Shown here piece by piece: positions 1 through 11,468 of a DNA stretch of 64,000 nt. A model generated the notes under the pieces. That model worked only from the letters and a program-made list of their open reading frames with translations. It ran no database searches and was not told where the DNA came from. Position 1 is the stretch's first letter. Every line of letters begins with the position of its first letter. The translations under genes and the position numbers were made by a program. The DNA is from Nannochloropsis oceanica (taxonomy: Eukaryota > Sar > Eustigmatophyceae > Eustigmatales > Monodopsidaceae), in assembly GCA_004519485.1 (NCBI GenBank), contig CP038134.1:372001-436000 (forward strand), written 5' to 3'.

Positions 1-1945
1 TGCTCCGCATCAGCCATGCGACGCAACACAATGCATCCCATGCCTTCCGCGCGGAAGAAGCCTTTGGGTCCGTCCTCATCGAAGGGATGGCAAGCAGGGC
101 CTTGCACGAGCACACCGCAGGCTTGGAGGGAGAGATGAAAGTCTTTTTCCGACAGATAGTTAATGCCGACGACGATGGCCGTGTCGCAGTCACCAACGGA
201 AAGCGCATTGGCAGCCAGGGCAGTGGCAACCAAAGAGGAAGAGCATGCCGTTTCCAAGGTGACACTGGGGCCATGTGTACCGAGGAAATATGACACTACA
301 GGTAAAGATGGAGGTAGGAGGGGAGGGACGTGGGTCATTGGAATTTTGTATTAGTATTTTGCCAAGTAGACATGGAAAAAAAGGATAATGAATGAAGAGA
401 AATGCCGCAATTGCGGTGGCGTTTGAAAAAGTGGATAAAAATTAAAGCAAGGAAGGGAGAGAGGGAGGGAGGAAGGGAGGGAGGGAGGGAGGGAGGGAGG
501 GGGAAAACATGCTGGCCCAAGCATGCAGAGGGAGGAAATGAAGGCATATACATGTACGCACGCACAAGAACAACACAATAGTACACATAAACAAACCAAA
601 ATCAAAGCCAAACAAAAATATTTTCTTAAAAAAAAACTTCTATACATATGTACAGAGCTCAAAAGAGAAAAGCGTTCCTCACACACAAAAGCTCGCCTTC
701 CCCCCAACCCACCGCAACCAAAGCATACCGTGATCAGCAATAGAGCTCATCGCAGAACTGCGCAAGAATGTCTCGTCGGGGGCATCGACAGATGGCAGAA
801 AAGGGCAGTATCCCGCGACGAAAACGCCTGTGCGGGTCTTAAAAATCTCGTGCAATGGGATGCCGGCATCCTCAAGGCCCTCGTACGCAGCCTGCCGTGA
901 TTGGATTGGGTTGGGGTAGTGCGGGGAAGAGGAAAAACAAAATTAGAATCAATGGTATCAATACTGCCCATAAGCTCTGCGTTTCGTCCATCTGTATATA
1001 GGGGGGGCAGAGGTATAGATGGGAGGTGCTGCGATTTGAGTGAAATCAAGAGCGAGCCCCCACACTTCTCCCCCAAGCCCCCCTCCTGCCCAAAGCATGC
1101 CCCTCCTCTCACACAACCCTTGCCCCTCTGCAAAAGACGTACTTGGAGGGCAGCCAGCTGATGCACGTGCATGGTCTTGGTGAGTTTGCCTTGGACATTG
1201 AACATATGGGCATCGTACGCAAGCACTTCGTCCATCGTGAACGCCATGGCCTCCTTGGACTTGAGCTTCCACGGATGGTCATCGTCCTCGTCCACGTCCG
1301 AGGCATGGTACCGGCCGCCAGCCACTGTATCCACCGATATCTATGTTGGTGTGTTGTGTGGTGTAGTGCGTGGGAGAAGAGGGATTTGCATGGGTAAGAG
1401 CGTGTACGAGGGCACGGCGCCAAGCTGAAAGATCATTTGCGCATGTGAAGCTTCTCCGTCCCAATTTGGAAACTGGTAAACGCGGATGATCACGCTATGT
1501 GTATGTGCAAAGTATGTGGAAATGGTACTGAATTTATGTTGATAAGACAGGCTCAACACATGGGGTATGCACGCAGGAAAAAGGGGCTGCAGGCGAAAGA
1601 TCGGAGATTGTCCTTCTTCCCTATGTGTTCCTTGAAAAAGAACAAAAGGACCGAAAAAATGATAATCACACACAAGTTTCCCGCACACTTCTGCTTGCAT
1701 GATCACATGGGCGTAATTTCAACCCTTTCCTTGGAAGTGCGCGCACCGGCAGGCTTTTCACAGCCTTACTTTATTGGCGCCAACAAGTATCCTCTCCCGA
1801 GGCATCAGGTTTTTTGCCCTCTTTTATTACTTACCTGGCGCTTGTCCCGGATAACTTCGTAGAACTCCTCGCGAGTCTTGATATTGGCAGGCAGTGTGAT
1901 TGCGGCACCGATCAGGGCCAACGGGAGCGCATGAGGGGCATTCAT
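1..1945 (-). CDS. Polyketide synthase, N-terminal ketosynthase domain (5' part; runs off the window)
   Basis: Four exons fit in phase: 1945-1835, 1340-1143, 891-729 and 295-1. The protein starts with MNAPHALPLALIGAAITLP, which is the opening strand of a ketosynthase (KS), so no loading domain precedes it. The second exon carries the linker and LTKTMHVHQLAALQ, and the third opens with AAYEGLEDAG, matching the family's WEALEDAG. The last junction restores VSYFLGTHGPSVTLETACSSS. This is the KS nucleophile motif, with the active-site Cys in TACSSS. The catalytic His residues would lie beyond position 1. KS domains condense acyl-ACP with malonyl-ACP in polyketide or polyunsaturated fatty acid assembly. 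I infer a large type I enzyme because stand-alone KAS enzymes usually lack this GPSVTLETACSS context, but the downstream modules cannot be seen. Each intron starts with GT and ends with AG. Confidence 0.85.
450..500. repeat. (GGGA)n microsatellite in PKS intron
   Basis: An irregular GGGA/GGAA purine run lies within the last visible intron of the polyketide synthase gene. It is a simple sequence repeat with no coding role. Confidence 0.8.
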
Positions 1946-4412
1946 GGCTCAAGAGGCAGAACAGCAGCAGTTCGACGCGACTCAGACCTCCTATTTTTGG
2001 TTGGGCCTGTTTCGGGGTTGGACACGGGGGCAAAAATGAGAATCAGTGGGTATGCGAGGACACTCACTACAGTACAAGTTGTAGGCCAAGCATTGCGTCG
2101 TAAGAGGGCTACTTTACACTGAAAGCGTTGTTTCAATGGTTCACAAAAGCTCGTTCTCAGCGAGCACCTCACAGTCTATGAGGAGGAAGATTGGAATTGC
2201 CTCGCCGGGGCCAGAAAGTAACGTAGCTATTACAGTAATAGCCTCAGCACCTGACTTGATTTGACTTGTTTCCTTAGGGTTCACCCATCCAATCTTTATA
2301 ACATTACCTATCCGTAAGCTACAGACATTCACTTGGTGCCATTGACGGCCGAGAGGAGCCTGGGGATGGGGAGCGAATGACCACGTCATCGTAATCTTAA
2401 TGGTCACCAATCGATCAGCTCGGCACCTACGCCCTTGTTGGCATCCATTCAACCGACGGAGTAATAGAACCTGTGCGACTGCTACACGATGCACCAACAG
2501 ACTTTTATTCTTCCATGCATGCTGTCATTCGGAATGGCTGCGGGAGTCCCTGCAGGGCGGCGGTATCATCAAGATCCAACTTCGCACGTACATGAAAAAA
2601 GCGAAGCCGAAGGAGCAATGCGTCTCTTCTGCGACTCATGCTGGCCACCAAAAAAGTCATTTTCAAGGTCCTAGACTATGCATTCGTCATGTCCTCCCCA
2701 AAGGAGCGCGCACACTACGCGAGTGTGAGACAGGGAAAGCGAAACAAAATTCGGAGACAATGATTGCCCGGGGGAAAGCCGAGACCATGTAAGTCCTCCT
2801 CATCAGTGTAATTTTCTGCCTTGGATTAGGAGAGAGAGGGTAAGTGATAGAAGTGGGCGGCAAAAAGTATGAGAGCAAGAGGCATAGTCGCCTTCGGGTG
2901 GAAAAATTCCTATCGAATGGATTGCGTTCGGATGTGGGGCCTGGCTGTGGGAGGTCCACCTTCCTCGTCACTGCGCGGTGCACGCAACCCAATCCGCTTT
3001 CCAATGAGACACAGAAAAACGTGGGAGTATGGGGAGGTATGGAAGTAACACACGAAACGAGACCACCAGATGGAGAAAAGGGGCCAGTGTATATTAATTA
3101 GAGTGCGATGCAGAAAGTCCATGAGTAGGCCATACATATAGCTTTGAGGGGACACTGTCAATGAACAAATAATAAACGAGTCCTTGCGCGCAATAAGAAG
3201 GGGGAATGTCGTGATCGGCCTTGTCCCACTAACGGCGATTGCATTCGCTGCAATGGCAGTTTTTTTGGTACTTTTTTGGTGGTGGGTCCCATTTATTCTC
3301 TGGGGGACGCCAGTGTCAGTATATCTGCAGATATATACCTCTGCCTCTCTCTGCCTGTCTGATCATGAGGCCTGGCGAGTGAATGGGTAGGTAAATCGAC
3401 CCCTTGGTTCCCAAAAGAGGCCCTTGGGCAGTTGGGGCCTCCCTCTTCAGTTATGGCGTCATCTGAGACCCCTGCCGTGGCTCTTTTTCTTGCAAACACA
3501 TCCCAATATCACATCTCCTTTGAATTCTGCAGACAAAGAGTTTGGGGCATGGTGTTGACGATTGTTATTCTTACGAAATCATCTTATATTACATGTAAGA
3601 CATATAAATCATATATCATACAAGGGGGTAGGGGTCACATAGCGAGACCTCTTGCGTCTCTTGGACCTTTGGAGGAGCCTCCTGTCTCTGGTGCTCCTCG
3701 GTGAAGGAACGCCAAACAAAATAGCGATAAGTGTATGAGAGACGGCAGTGTCGTCTTTCAGTGAACGCTGCATCCATGCCCTATAAAAAAAAATGGACCC
3801 GGCACCAGCCAGTCAGGGTGGGCTGGGGTCACCGGTCGGGAGTCCCCAAATATTGGACAATCGGGCGACCGGCCTGAACCGGTTACGTTGCCGGATGGCG
3901 TTCTCTCAAAGCCAAGTGGAGCCCCGAGGAATCTTGGGGACTCAAATGTTCGTGAACCCAATCAGCGCGCACATTCCCTATTACTCTGTATCATAGTATG
4001 ATGTACATGGCGATGCCATGGGATTCATTTGTTTGCTATTCTCGTTTGTACTTTTGTACTTTATATAGAGGATGGCCTTCAAACTCTCCATTCAAAGTCA
4101 TAATTTCTTGGCTTCACTTTGTGTTCTATTAACGCGGACTTTCTCATTGTTTCGCGTCCTCGGAGACTCAACTCCCACACACAAATGCACTCACACCACA
4201 CAGTCTGAGTTTGATAATGGGCGAGAGCAGTGCGAGAGACTTTGTATGGAAAATTTGGAAGGCAGCAGACAGCAGCAGCGACGACAATCGGCTAACCTTC
4301 GGCGACCGCCATCACAAACTCCTCCTCAAGGAGGCCTTATTCATGACATCTCGGGGGAAGTACGGATAAAGAATGGGTGGGCATCTTGAAGGAGGATCGA
4401 GGATGGCAAGGT

Positions 4413-4482: not shown

Positions 4483-5154
4483 GGGAGAAGACGTAGTTGT
4501 AGTAGCAGCAGCAGTAGCAACAGTAGCAGCAGTAGCAGCAAAAACGGCAACAGTGACAGGATGTAAAAAAAGAAGAAGAGCCACCGACAGAAGGACCAGA
4601 GGCAAAACAAAGCAGCAGAGGGAATAAAAGGGCCAGAGTAAATTACAATGTAACGCAAAACATCTGTGCGGGCCATGCATATAGCCTCCAGGAAGCAAAG
4701 TAAATATACGACAATATACGAGGTGAAGTACGCAAGATAAAGGGGATGAGGCATTATGTGCCTTGCTCCACTGCCTTTAAGCGACACCGCCCCTGCAGTG
4801 GCCTTAATCTGTTCAAGTACATCGTTCCGGGCCTCGCAGACACTATCCCTGTGACCTTGCACCACCTTCATCGATCATATCATTGTATTTTTGCATGTAA
4901 CAGAACTTTTCTCTTCTGTTCGTGTGGCCCGGGGACTAAATCAACCAATCTTGATCCCCAGGATACCAGGACATACCTTTTCGCCGAGGGCCCTGAGATT
5001 CCTTTTCGTGGATGACCAATCCAATACTTTATGGTGCTTCCCATCATGGCAAGTACGGCGGCTTTAGAGCCCCTCCCCATGCGCTCTGCACTCAGTGTCC
5101 CCGAGACCATCAGCGCACCACACGTTGGACGACTATTCTGCAAAAATGGCATTC

Positions 5155-5400
5155 ACAACTGATTATTACGATTGTCGTCGATAGTCATGTGATTAGTCGT
5201 AGTCGTTCATGGTTCCCTTCGAGAACGACTCATAGTCGTCATAATCGCTCATGATTTTCATCGAGCGACGGTCGCAGTCGTGCATGTCATCAAGCGACGA
5301 TATATAAAGTCATCGCATTCGTTCATTTTTTCACCGATCTACGACAACATTCAACTTTTAGTCGTCACAACGATCATATGATCACTATGAATTCTCGTTG
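5155..5400. repeat. AGTCGT/ACGACT motif-rich block
   Basis: The block contains many near-copies of AGTCGT, TCGTCG and their complements, separated by roughly 10-20 bases. Their mixed orientation gives weak dyad symmetry. It lies just outside the left end of the 839-bp TIR element. No coding potential is seen. It may be the decayed end of another repeat. Confidence 0.4.
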
Positions 5401-5448
5401 TCCAGCAGCTTAGAAGTTACTGCCGCAAACCGTGACATTCAAGTATTA

Positions 5449-5603
5449 CGGACTATACAGAAAGTGACGTAAGTTTTTTGCTCTTTTACTTTTTTGGGGT
5501 TTTAACATTACGAGCCTTGCCACCGGCATGGTGACCTCTCCTTTTATTCTTCCGAGCACCAAAAAAAGTCCGCCCCGCATGACGGTGTAGCTCCCGGCAT
5601 CAG
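5449..5603 (+). repeat. Left terminal inverted repeat
   Basis: Pairs with 6123-6287. The outer 17 bases match except for one substitution. Inner parts share the runs TTTTTTGCTCTT, CCACCGGCATGGTGAC and GGGCATCAG-like sequence. Confidence 0.85.
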
Positions 5604-6103
5604 GCCACTGGCGTTTTCACGGGACGATTACGCCATCCCGCTCTGAACAAGCCGCTTTTTTTTATCATTATACTTTTACCCAGTCTGTCTCTGAATACAG
5701 AATGTAACACGGCCACGAAGACCCCAACACCAGAACTCGTTCTTACGCCGTACGTTACACTTGCCCAACTCGCACTAGGAGACGGTCTACTCGTCCACGA
5801 TTTTATGCCATTAGCACTTGTTATGACTTGATTTGGATTCCCGTTCGAGGACACCGCCACAAACATTCCCTTGCCCGTGTTTGTCACAACACCATAGGTC
5901 AAGCCGTAAAGCGTACTATTCGTCGTGCTAGATCGAATTGTAAACTGACCGTCACATTGCGGTCGAGCACGCACGGGGATTTGGTATGTCTTGGCCACGG
6001 AGGATCCCGCTTCGCTCTGAATAACCGACAACTTCATGTTGTACGCCCCGTTTGAAACGGAGGTGCGGCTTGTGATCAAGCCGCTCCTTTGGCTGCCGGT
6101 CAT
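5600..6103 (-). CDS. Cargo ORF of the TIR element: 167-aa protein with FVAV/YG-type repeats
   Basis: An uninterrupted ATG-to-stop frame fills the element's interior. It contains two imperfect units of about 45 residues. The first reads TLYGLTYGVVTNTGKGMFVAV followed by a segment with VITSANGIKSWTSR. The second begins SWASVTYGVRTSSGVGVFVAV. From memory, units of the form 'W.SV.YG.G.FVAV...VMTS.DG..WT.R' occur in tandem in uncharacterised bacterial, phage and algal-virus proteins thought to form beta-propellers. Two units cannot close a propeller. The C-terminus is basic (KSIMIKKSGLFRAGWRNRP). No signal peptide is obvious. The function is unknown, and it could be a captured gene fragment that stays open by chance or because the element spread recently. 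Confidence 0.5.
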   Translation of the reverse strand: MTGSQRSGLITSRTSVSNGAYNMKLSVIQSEAGSSVAKTYQIPVRARPQCDGQFTIRSSTTNSTLYGLTYGVVTNTGKGMFVAVSSNGNPNQVITSANGIKSWTSRPSPSASWASVTYGVRTSSGVGVFVAVLHSVFRDRLGKSIMIKKSGLFRAGWRNRPVKTPVA

Positions 6104-6122
6104 CCCGCCCCAACGAGTGGGA

Positions 6123-6287
6123 CTGATGCCCGGAGCTACCCCTTCATTTGCGGGGCGGGCTTCTTTTGGTGCTCAAGTTATGATAGAAGGAGATGTCACC
6201 ATGCCGGTGGGCAAGGCTCATAATGGTGATTAAAACACCAAAAAAGTAAAAAGAGCAAAAAACTTACGTAACTTTCTGTATAGTCCG
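6123..6287 (-). repeat. Right terminal inverted repeat
   Basis: Reverse complement of the left repeat. It ends CTTTCTGTATAGTCCG, followed by TA. Confidence 0.85.
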
Positions 6288-6416
6288 TACGGTTTATGTT
6301 ATTTGTGGAATTTTTGTATTAACTACGTGCTTCGCGCTTTTTGTTGGTTTAGGGATCTAAGAGGGGTGAATGATGATGTTCAGATACTAATTATTACTCA
6401 AATTGGCTGATGGATG

Positions 6417-6567
6417 CTAGACCCTGATCCCTTCTTTAACCATATCGCCAGTAATCGTCTGGCTCGAACTATATTCCCTGCTCACAAAGGCCACAACATC
6501 GACTGCCAGTCCCTCCAATACTGCAGTCATAAAGACATCCGCTGCCTCACTAACCCGCAAATGGCCT
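6417..6567 (-). pseudogene. Histone-fold (H2A-like) gene fragment
   Basis: A minus-strand frame reads HLRVSEAADVFMTAVLEGL and then AVDVVAFVSREYSS and TITGDMVKEGIRV before a stop at 6417-6419. It lines up with the H2A core, where RVGAGAPVYLAAVLEYL leads into the long central helix and then the RIIPRHLQLAIRND strand and helix. The spacing is the same, but the Gly-Ala-Pro turn and most basic residues are changed. The fragment begins right next to a piece of the TIR repeat (6580-6638), and no N-terminal H2A half is visible upstream. A CAG acceptor-like site precedes it, so it could be a last exon whose partner is lost or distant. The similarity is judged by eye, and other H2A-fold families such as NF-YC are possible. 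Confidence 0.35.
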
Positions 6568-6638: not shown

Positions 6639-7525
6639 CAAAACATCCGAGAGATCACGATACGATGGGAGACCGACCGGAGTCCCGAGTTTCTTTCTCC
6701 ATTCTGGGATGCCGAGTTTTTGAGAGGGTCCAGTTTGCGGAATCCCACCTTCCAAAAATTAGAGGTATGGGAGCCAGGTTCCGTCTTCAACGTTTACTTC
6801 CAACGACTTCATGCATCTATTGTTACCTTTAAGTATGTCCGAACGAAGGGGTTCTTCGTTCCATTCTACTCCGCCGACTCTTGCTTTGATCAGGGTCTCT
6901 GCTACAGTCAGCAATGTATTTGTCATGTCAACTCGCGTACGATGCCACATGCAGCACCGAGTGGAACTTGAAGCCCCACGTATCGAGCAACGTGTTGGCC
7001 TTGTTCACACCCAACAACAATTTCGAGGACATGCGGACTAGAAGGTCCCTCCCCCAATAGCCCCTGTATCCCAGCCCCAAGAGATAGTTTCGAGCGCACA
7101 TTGGAGCGTGTACCCGTACCCGCACTACCCAACGCGCCGAATCGCTGATGCTTAAAGACGACTTCGACATTGTTTACCGTCAGTCTCGATTTGAAGACGT
7201 CCAAAAGACCTCCACCCAACGCTTAGGCCATGAGATTGTAAGACTCGACGAAAATAAGGATACAGGATTGCAGCCGACACATCTCTCGCATTGTCTATAG
7301 TTTGAGGAAATTTGGTAGTGGTCGCGATGTACGACATCTTTCACGACCAAATTGTCGAGTGACAGTAAATTGGTTGTAATTTGTGCGTAGCAAAATGTAA
7401 AAAAAAGGACGAAAAGTGGTACTGAAATGTTGTTTCTTCCTAACATATATATTTTGCCTTATCTCCCTTGGCGATTTCTAGTATGTTCTCTGCGGGGTTA
7501 TAACCAGTCAGAAATGTGCGTACAA
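6639..7525. other. Unresolved, possibly degraded coding DNA between TIR copies
   Basis: Several minus-strand frames look protein-like but are short and overlap. One ATG frame at 7446 starts with a hydrophobic, signal-like stretch (SVPLFVLFFTFCYAQITT) and runs to 7180. Another, around 6923-7219, contains LLDVFKSRLTVNNVEVVFKHQ and a Gly/Ala-rich segment. I could not assign any to a family or join them convincingly. The stretch may be a decayed gene or the interior of an older mobile element. Confidence 0.35.
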
Positions 7526-7765
7526 GGACTATACAGAAAGTTGTGTACGTTTTTACTCTTTTTATTTTTTTTAGGTTTTAATCACCATCACGTGCTTTGC
7601 CACCGGCATGGTCGCATCTACTTAATGTGAGCGCCAAAATACGCCCACCCCGCATGACGGGGTAGCTGCCGGCATCAGGCCACTAGCGTTTTCGCGTGAC
7701 GATGACGCCATTCCCCTCTGAACAAGCCGCTCCTTTGGCTGCCGGTCTAAATTTATTCCTTTTCG
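7526..7765. mobile_element. Internally deleted or truncated copy of the TIR element
   Basis: Begins GGACTATACAGAAAGTTGTG and follows the left repeat of the 839-bp element to the GAACAAGCCGCT segment. There it continues with TCCTTTGGCTGCCGGTC, which in the full element lies at the inner edge of the right repeat (about 6083-6100). The two inner edges are thus joined and the cargo region is missing. The outer right end is absent. Divergence from the full copy is clearly higher than between that copy's own two ends. Confidence 0.75.
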
Positions 7766-9477: not shown

Positions 9478-11468
9478 ATGGGCACCAAGAAGGGATTACA
9501 ACCATCGTCTTCCCGGCATGCACGTCAGGCGAATGGGAAAGATAGTGGTGTGGTCTCGGTGGGCATCCAACACTCATTAGAATGGAACGTGGAGGCATAT
9601 CAGGTGCCGAGTGGTAAAAATGGCAAGTTTCGCTGCATTCTGAACAATATTTCTGGGAAGACAGTGAGCGGAGAATTGACAGCGATTATGGGGCCGTCAG
9701 GTTGTGGTAAGACGACGCTGTTGGAGTGTATCTCGTTGCGGAACCGGCGGTTTCATGGGAGCGTCCATTTTGACGGAAAGGCCCCAGGGGGGGATGCTTT
9801 CACTGTGTCAGTACTTGTGCATCAAAAGGAGCTGTTGTTTGGCTTCATGACCCCGAGGGAGTATCTCATTTTTCACGCCTTGGCACGGATGGAGCGCACA
9901 CATACCAGGGCCGAGATCGATACAAGGATTGAGGAGGTATTGCTGGACATGAAGTTAGACAAATGTGCTGATACCTTGGTGGGTGGCACGGATCCTTTTT
10001 TCCAGAAAAAAGGTCTATCGGGCGGAGAGAGGAAGCGGCTGGCGATTGCGTATGAGATGCTGTTGGCACCGAGTATGATTTTTTTGGACGAGCCATCTTC
10101 AGGCTTGGATTCGGTCATGTCCGAGTCGGTGAGTGTCTTTTCGGGAAAGGAACGGAGAGAAAAATGAAGGGAGAGGGAGCGAGGGATAGCTGAGAATCGA
10201 AAATTGTTGCTGGCATCAGATCTGATTTCATTTTCCCCTTCCTTTCTCTTCCCTTTTTCCCATCCCACCCACCCCATTCCCAAACAAAGATATTCCAATC
10301 TCTCAAGGATCTCGCCGACGGCGGTCGCGTCGTCATGGCATCTGTTCATTGCCCCTCTTCCGAAGCCTGCCAACTCTTTAGCCACCTCATGCTTCTGACA
10401 TGCGACGGTCGCCTAGCCTACCACGGCCCAACCTTGCAGGGGATCGAGTACTTCTCCTCCTTGACGTACTTGTGCCCCCAGCACTACAATCCGGCAGATT
10501 TTTACCTGAAGCTTATCTCGTTCACCCCCGGGGGAGAAGTCGAAGCAGAGGGGGCAAGGATGAATTTGTTGAGTGCCTCCTTTCAGAAGTCCGCGATGTG
10601 TGTAAGCAAGCCGTTGGCGGTGGACAACAAGCATAAGGCGTTGGGAGGGGTGCGTGGGGTTAAAGCCAGTACCTGGATCTTGTTAAAGTTGAATTTTTGG
10701 AGGGCAAGCCTGAGGTTGCGGAGGGACAGGACGTTTGTGGTGCTTTGGGGTATGATTAGTGTGATCGTGGGATTCCTTTTGGGGATAATCTACTTGCAAC
10801 AGGCGCCCAATTCGTGGCGGAACCTGTTGGGGCTGCTTTTCTCGCTGGTGGTGGCAGACATCTTCATGGGTTCTTTGGGGGTGATCATGCGATTTCCGTC
10901 GGAATGGGCAATTATTGTGAGGGAGTGTTACAGTGGTGTCAATGCTGTGGGACCGTACTTGTTCGCGTCGTTCTGGGGGATCTTACCGATGGCCTACGGG
11001 CCGTTTTTGCTCGTTACGGTTATGTACTGGATGACAGGGATGGATGCTGATTTTGTGAGGTACTTGAGGTTTGCGGGGATTTATTTGAGTTATGACATTG
11101 CGTGTTTGGGGCTTGGCCAGTTCGTGAGTAGCTTGAGTGGGAACCCGATGATTGGGATGACGATTTTGCCGGCGTTTGTGGCGCCGATGATCATGTTTTC
11201 GGGGGTGTTGTATCAAAAGAGCACGGTGCCTGCATGGTTGGGGTGGATGCACCATGTGAGCTTGGTGAACTATTCGTTTTCGGCCTTGATGGCGGAGCAG
11301 ATTCACATTTTGCCGGGAAACCAAGCAGATATTTTGGCGGCATTTATTGATTTGAATGAGAATTCTGCCGGGATCAATGTTGTGTATCTGTGGGTGATGA
11401 GTGGGGCGTTGATGATCCTGACATATTTTGCCTTGAGTCTGCGTTTGCGGAATGCGACAGCGAGTTAG
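9478..11468 (+). CDS. ABC transporter, ABCG (White/half-size) family
   Basis: Two exons, 9478-10128 and 10290-11468, give 609 residues. The splice GAGTCG|GTGAGT...CAAAG|ATATTC restores the frame and the family's expected text after the D-loop, IFQSLKDLADGGRVVMASVH. The nucleotide-binding domain comes first, as in all ABCG proteins. Walker A is GPSGCGKTTLL (about residue 72), the signature is LSGGERKRLAIA (about 181) and Walker B is MIFLDEPSSGLD (about 200). The H-loop position reads ASVHCPSS, with His present. The C-terminal half is an ABC2-type membrane domain with about six hydrophobic segments, starting with FVVLWGMISVIVGFLLGIIYL near residue 365. Half-transporters dimerise and export lipids, sterols or hydrophobic metabolites. 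The substrate cannot be read from the sequence. The short N-terminus lacks any organelle signal I can recognise. Confidence 0.93.

Follow-up and report, generated by a model that had tools for sequence, protein, structure and literature searches.

The 167-amino acid (aa) open frame at positions 5600–6103 of the window, on the minus strand, most likely arose by accident in one copy of a dispersed repeat, rather than as the cargo of a mobile element. The window is a 64,000-nucleotide stretch of the Nannochloropsis oceanica genome (positions 372001–436000 of contig 8; the genome comprises 29.26 Mb in 32 contigs). Comparison with other copies of the repeat leaves very little doubt that a 416-bp fragment from a gene with YG/FVAV repeats has become nested within a pre-existing, non-coding palindrome. 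Because the other copies lack the middle 416 bp, at whose borders a 13-bp direct repeat stands, the frame that runs from one inverted repeat to the other joins two unrelated sequences. The locus as a whole is probably best explained by capture of a gene fragment during repair of a break at the palindrome's apex, leaving an inert product. The first-pass annotation had described a terminal inverted repeat (TIR) element with an open frame in place of a transposase and had singled it out as a candidate for an undescribed system. That description is contradicted by an insert that occurs in a single copy and is bounded by the palindrome's own duplication; the undescribed system is unsupported, and what mimics a cargo-carrying transposon is a nested insertion. 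The analysis thereby eliminates a spurious candidate for a transposon system with cargo, and the locus illustrates that a repeat-to-repeat open frame can arise from a nested insertion whose length is by chance a multiple of three.

The inverted repeats noted previously at both ends are real. They occupy positions 5447–5503 and 6233–6289, are 88% complementary, and extend inward as further pairs (I5, I6, I3, and I4) up to 5579/6149. These repeats belong to the left half (5447–5656, plus strand) and right half (6073–6289, plus strand) of a near-palindromic, MITE-like repeat, the usual member of which is a near-perfect palindrome of about 418 bp. Among 20 places fetched from the genome, 13 had both arms whole and adjacent and were aligned (416–419 bp); the remaining seven (L019, L028, L031, and L033–L036) are truncated or rearranged. 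When each of the 13 is compared with its reverse complement, almost the entire length aligns, at 77–90% identity, and the center lies at 208–210. When the window flanks are joined across the insert, they form a 414-bp sequence that is 85–90% identical to the 13 copies from end to end. Use of positions 5449–6287 as a whole-genome query yielded at least 193 matching pieces (the best 40 of 198 candidates were scored); among the matches listed, many place query positions 1–208 and 629–839 side by side with an overlap of about 9 bases and the middle missing. The ends of the palindrome carry ACGGACTATACAG. Allowing up to one mismatch, the terminal motif occurs 199 times genome-wide (100 and 99 on the two strands), compared to 0 and 2 occurrences of reversed-pattern controls. 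For an intact copy (L023), folding gives one hairpin of −228 kcal/mol (z −42 relative to 100 shuffled sequences); its long stem comprises 164 pairs, and about 90 of the 418 bases make up the apical region. The family is represented in the window a second time, by a partial copy at 7519–7747 with an end at 7525.

The insert (5657–6072) sits across the center of the palindrome and is absent from the 13 aligned copies, an absence that partly reflects their selection as copies with whole, adjacent arms. It is bounded by a direct duplication of palindrome sequence, TGAACAAGCCGCT at 5644–5656, where the left half ends, and TGATCAAGCCGCT at 6073–6085 (both plus strand), which agree at 12 of 13 bp. 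The duplicated stretch corresponds to positions 198–210 of the joined flanks and thus includes the palindrome center at 207.5. In the 13 aligned copies this stretch is found once only, with variants, which indicates that the palindrome was present before the insert. No match to the insert was found in the 20 other fetched palindrome places or in 42 loci around other copies, many of which overlap. In the whole genome, the only matches to the insert are itself and an 80-nucleotide stretch on contig 18 (90% identity); the check proposed in the first-pass annotation, whether copies share the cargo, thus goes against the cargo reading. The suggestion of a recent capture holds only to the extent that one copy contains a captured gene fragment.

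The single frame running from repeat to repeat was likewise recognized correctly, and it lies on the minus strand. The palindrome contributes the ATG with about the first 10 codons and, at the other end, ~19 codons and the stop, and the insert supplies the middle. The frame stays open because insert plus duplication amount to 429 bp, a multiple of three. In palindromes without the insert, this ATG begins a minus-strand frame of 24 residues (MTGSQRSGLFRAGWRHRPAKTPVA or a similar sequence). The joined window flanks have this short frame, as do 7 of the 13 copies (L018 and L021–L026), and the insert splits it. In the other six copies, the frame runs past this point (L020, L027, and L030), stops early (L029), or lacks the searched start (L017 and L032). 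Within the insert, the sense frame contains no stops, whereas the other five frames contain 2, 5, 7, 7, and 10; the whole frame remained open in 29 of 20,000 Markov shuffles of the insert. These findings support derivation of the insert from coding sequence.

Could the fused frame now be a working host gene? Its openness relative to shuffled sequence would fit such a role, although a coding origin accounts for that openness. The frame occurs once in the genome, its start and stop belong to a widespread repeat, and it holds only ~1.5 repeat units. Comparison of the insert to its sole close relative, the 80-nucleotide stretch on contig 18, revealed six amino acid-changing and two silent codon differences, a pattern that shows no sign of constraint over a length too short to prove neutrality. 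The purifying selection across copies that the first-pass annotation proposed to look for is thus not apparent. We consider a host function very improbable, and the product of the fused frame is most likely inert.

The YG and FVAV units noted earlier are indeed present in the frame, and similarity of the insert to the YG/FVAV (VMTSPDGxTWT) repeat is significant (E 2e-3 in the phage collection, 7.9e-5, and 1.4e-3). In the phage collection, the insert protein resembles a 321-aa repeat frame of Synechococcus phage B23 (33% identity over 65% of the query; E 2e-3), and the other listed records scored E 0.9 or worse. This phage frame (MN695335.1; L059, positions 2815–3780) consists of clear VMTSPDGVTWT repeats and is unannotated; the record annotates two minus-strand genes at the same place, probably on the wrong strand. 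Searched against the N. oceanica genome, the phage frame matched a large frame on contig 9, two scraps on contig 23, one on contig 7, and the window. Contig-9 repeats used as a genome query returned the same set together with six matches on C15 and C13 (E 0.16–8.6) that were discarded as chance-level. The contig-9 gene is a relative of the insert (29–46% protein identity in local matches) and not its source; the parental gene of the insert was not found in this genome. The large contig-9 host frame (L070) contains a long TPTATPTAAPT linker followed by C-terminal YG/FVAV–VMTSPDG repeats and may encode a protein that is secreted and has a propeller-like domain. The nearest Pfam family for both the phage and contig-9 frames is DUF6242, which falls below its cut-off; for the contig-9 frame, the EPTP score exceeds the cut-off with no single stretch passing. 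The insert itself gave one meaningless Pfam match (E 5.1), no PHROGs family, and one PDB match at E 0.55. It shares the repeat pattern and spacing of the YG/FVAV...VMTSPDGVTWT proteins of phages and bacteria, but differs in having only ~1.5 units and in a YG–FVAV interval that is longer by ~6 residues.

The resemblance to phage and bacterial proteins proposed in the first-pass annotation accordingly stands for phage through the B23 frame and for bacteria by way of the contig-9 relative. It also raises the question of whether the insert was acquired horizontally from a virus or bacterium. Used as query, the contig-9 repeats found relatives in 19 contigs of viruses and 13 of bacteria, and the repeat in phage B23 likewise speaks for such a transfer. 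However, when the insert itself was compared to viral contigs, 0 of 13 pattern matches were confirmed, and its closest relative in any search is the host fragment on contig 18. Its G+C content (49%) is also near that of the window (52%). Horizontal transfer is therefore improbable.

Scraps of the repeat family are dispersed at five sites: the window, contigs 7 and 18, and two positions on contig 23. The scrap in the window is the only one of the five that lies inside a palindrome. On contig 7, the scrap starts ~147 bp beyond a palindrome half that breaks off near position 190 of 418, and one open frame spans both; a palindrome end is ~340 bp away from one of the contig-23 scraps. Two of the five have no palindrome in the flanks examined (1.5 kb and >4 kb on each side). 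These neighbors, together with a frame that is open from repeat to repeat, are what might be expected of a class of TIR transposons in which each element is helped by a repeat-protein gene of its own. Yet the insert was found in no other copy searched and is bounded by the palindrome's own duplication, and at the DNA level the scraps on contigs 7 and 23 resemble it over no more than 24 nucleotides and are arranged differently. Considering also the scraps that stand apart from palindromes, the probability of a cargo-bearing class is close to negligible.

The ends of the palindrome bear on the same question. TA is present at both ends of the window copy, as reported in the first-pass annotation, but it is not duplicated at most copies: TA occurs on both sides in 3 of the 12 aligned copies with readable ends (L020, L023, and L025; L029, which has no readable end, was left out of the count). 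In these three copies and in the window, one of the two TAs sits in a conserved tail, GTCCGTACGGTTTATG..., and on the side opposite the tail the two bases at the TA position vary among copies. We therefore rejected TA as a target-site duplication. Inspection by eye of the 12-base flanks of the palindrome ends disclosed no other target-site duplication. In most copies, one side continues as the conserved tail GTCCGTACGGTTTATGTTATTT... and the opposite flank is unique. The tail adjoins many palindrome copies and occupies positions 6290–6560 in the window, where it has suffered an internal deletion. A longer repeat of ~1.1 kb (L058, L044, and L041) includes the palindrome and a tail, and positions 6386–6560 of the window belong to a longer repeat of this kind.

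Searches with MULE and DDE_3 profiles for the full-length partner envisaged in the first-pass annotation produced no match at E ≤ 0.01. A 1.5-kb pair of facing palindrome ends on contig 6 (L119), in which the longest stop-to-stop frame is 195 aa, was considered as an autonomous partner and rejected as a composite. Without the insert, the palindrome resembles miniature inverted-repeat transposable elements (MITEs) and foldback (snap-back) elements in that it is short, non-coding, and moderately repeated, possesses long terminal inverted repeats, and folds as a near-perfect hairpin. It differs from them in that no target-site duplication was seen at its ends, most copies have a conserved tail on one side, and no parent transposase was found with the MULE and DDE_3 profiles. 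For these reasons we refer to the family as MITE-like, not as proven MITEs. Titles and abstract openings returned by a literature search contained no description of this palindrome family.

How did the gene fragment enter the palindrome? Many palindromes have been described as fragile sites (PMC7999016). In the model that we favor with modest confidence, the palindrome would extrude as a hairpin or cruciform and suffer a staggered cut near the hairpin apex; the break would be mended by capture of a stray gene fragment, and fill-in of the stagger would generate the 13-bp duplication. Break repair at the apex would explain the central position of the insert, the partial nature of the gene piece, the short duplication, and a snap-back at the sense-5′ junction. 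The snap-back (6065–6084), which was read directly from the sequence, consists of GCGGCTTG, TGAT, and CAAGCCGC and is perfect over 8 bp. The duplicated site corresponds to positions 205–217 of L023, within the apical ~90 bases and outside the long stem. Likeness to the filler or captured DNA (templated insertions) of break repair thus extends to a short, incomplete gene piece, a snap-back at one junction, a short flank duplication, and proximity to a hairpin apex. Several considerations weigh against break repair: the snap-back measures only 8 bp, and the central position could be due to chance, for which we estimate ~1 in 20 for a site within 10 bases of the center and ~1 in 5 for one anywhere in the apical region. 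Given a nested insertion, we regard the chances of the break-repair route as about even.

The main rival to break repair is retroposition, in which a 5′-truncated YG/FVAV-repeat mRNA would have been reverse transcribed into the palindrome by target priming to give a processed retrocopy. The sense 3′ end of the insert, next to the duplication, carries 7–8 A (a T-run at 5656–5663 of the plus strand), and this A-run and a duplication of 9–13 bp, which would be equally expected from retroposition, are explained by it. The insert further resembles processed retrocopies in its open sense frame and apparent 5′ truncation. Moreover, the window insert departs from break-repair filler in combining a clean 13-bp duplication with an A-run, a combination that is commoner with retroposition. 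On the other hand, a six-frame search of the genome for reverse transcriptase identified two weak matches that fall below the family cut-off, although introns or divergence could hide some; the window insert differs from processed retrocopies in the lack of a clear reverse transcriptase in its genome. No parent was identified and no parental transcript was found, and the A-run is short. The nick site, CCGCT/CCTTT, also differs from TTTT/A, the site of L1-like endonucleases. We view a processed retrocopy as possible but distinctly less probable than break repair.

A further, improbable possibility is that palindrome centers are recurrent capture points. Cutting of the cruciform close to its apex would then repeatedly admit stray gene fragments, each with a short fill-in duplication, and an otherwise harmless hairpin repeat would serve as a trap in which fusion reading frames are generated. 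The broken palindrome half on contig 7, with its scrap and joint open frame, would be a second case. The proximity of scraps to palindromes may exceed chance, but palindromes, scraps, and other repeats share repeat-rich places. Were recurrent capture to apply, this palindrome family would preserve, in compact and natural form, a history of how hairpin breaks are repaired in a microbial eukaryote.

Other features were noted in and around the window copy. Immediately to its left (5118–5416) is another dispersed repeat, rich in AGTCGT, with matches of 71–76% in L067, L051, L074, and L046; in L046, this repeat directly adjoins a palindrome end. The tail of other copies of the longer repeat includes a histone H2A-like fragment (L058, positions 1592–1861, minus strand; L044; and L065, positions 1426–1710, minus strand), exemplified by RSVRAGLIFPVGRIGTAMRKK in L065. 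This fragment matched H2A in the PDB (E 2.5e-4 for L065 and 1.4e-3 for L058) and had no match in Pfam; 8 of its 12 genome matches contain stops. The window's own 46-aa piece of this tail had no H2A match, its best hit being a pentatricopeptide protein (E 0.0099). Finally, positions 9478–10167 of the window (plus strand) contain a 229-aa open frame with the motifs GPSGCGKTT and DEPSSGLDS, judging by which it may be the ATPase portion of a transporter of the ABCG type.
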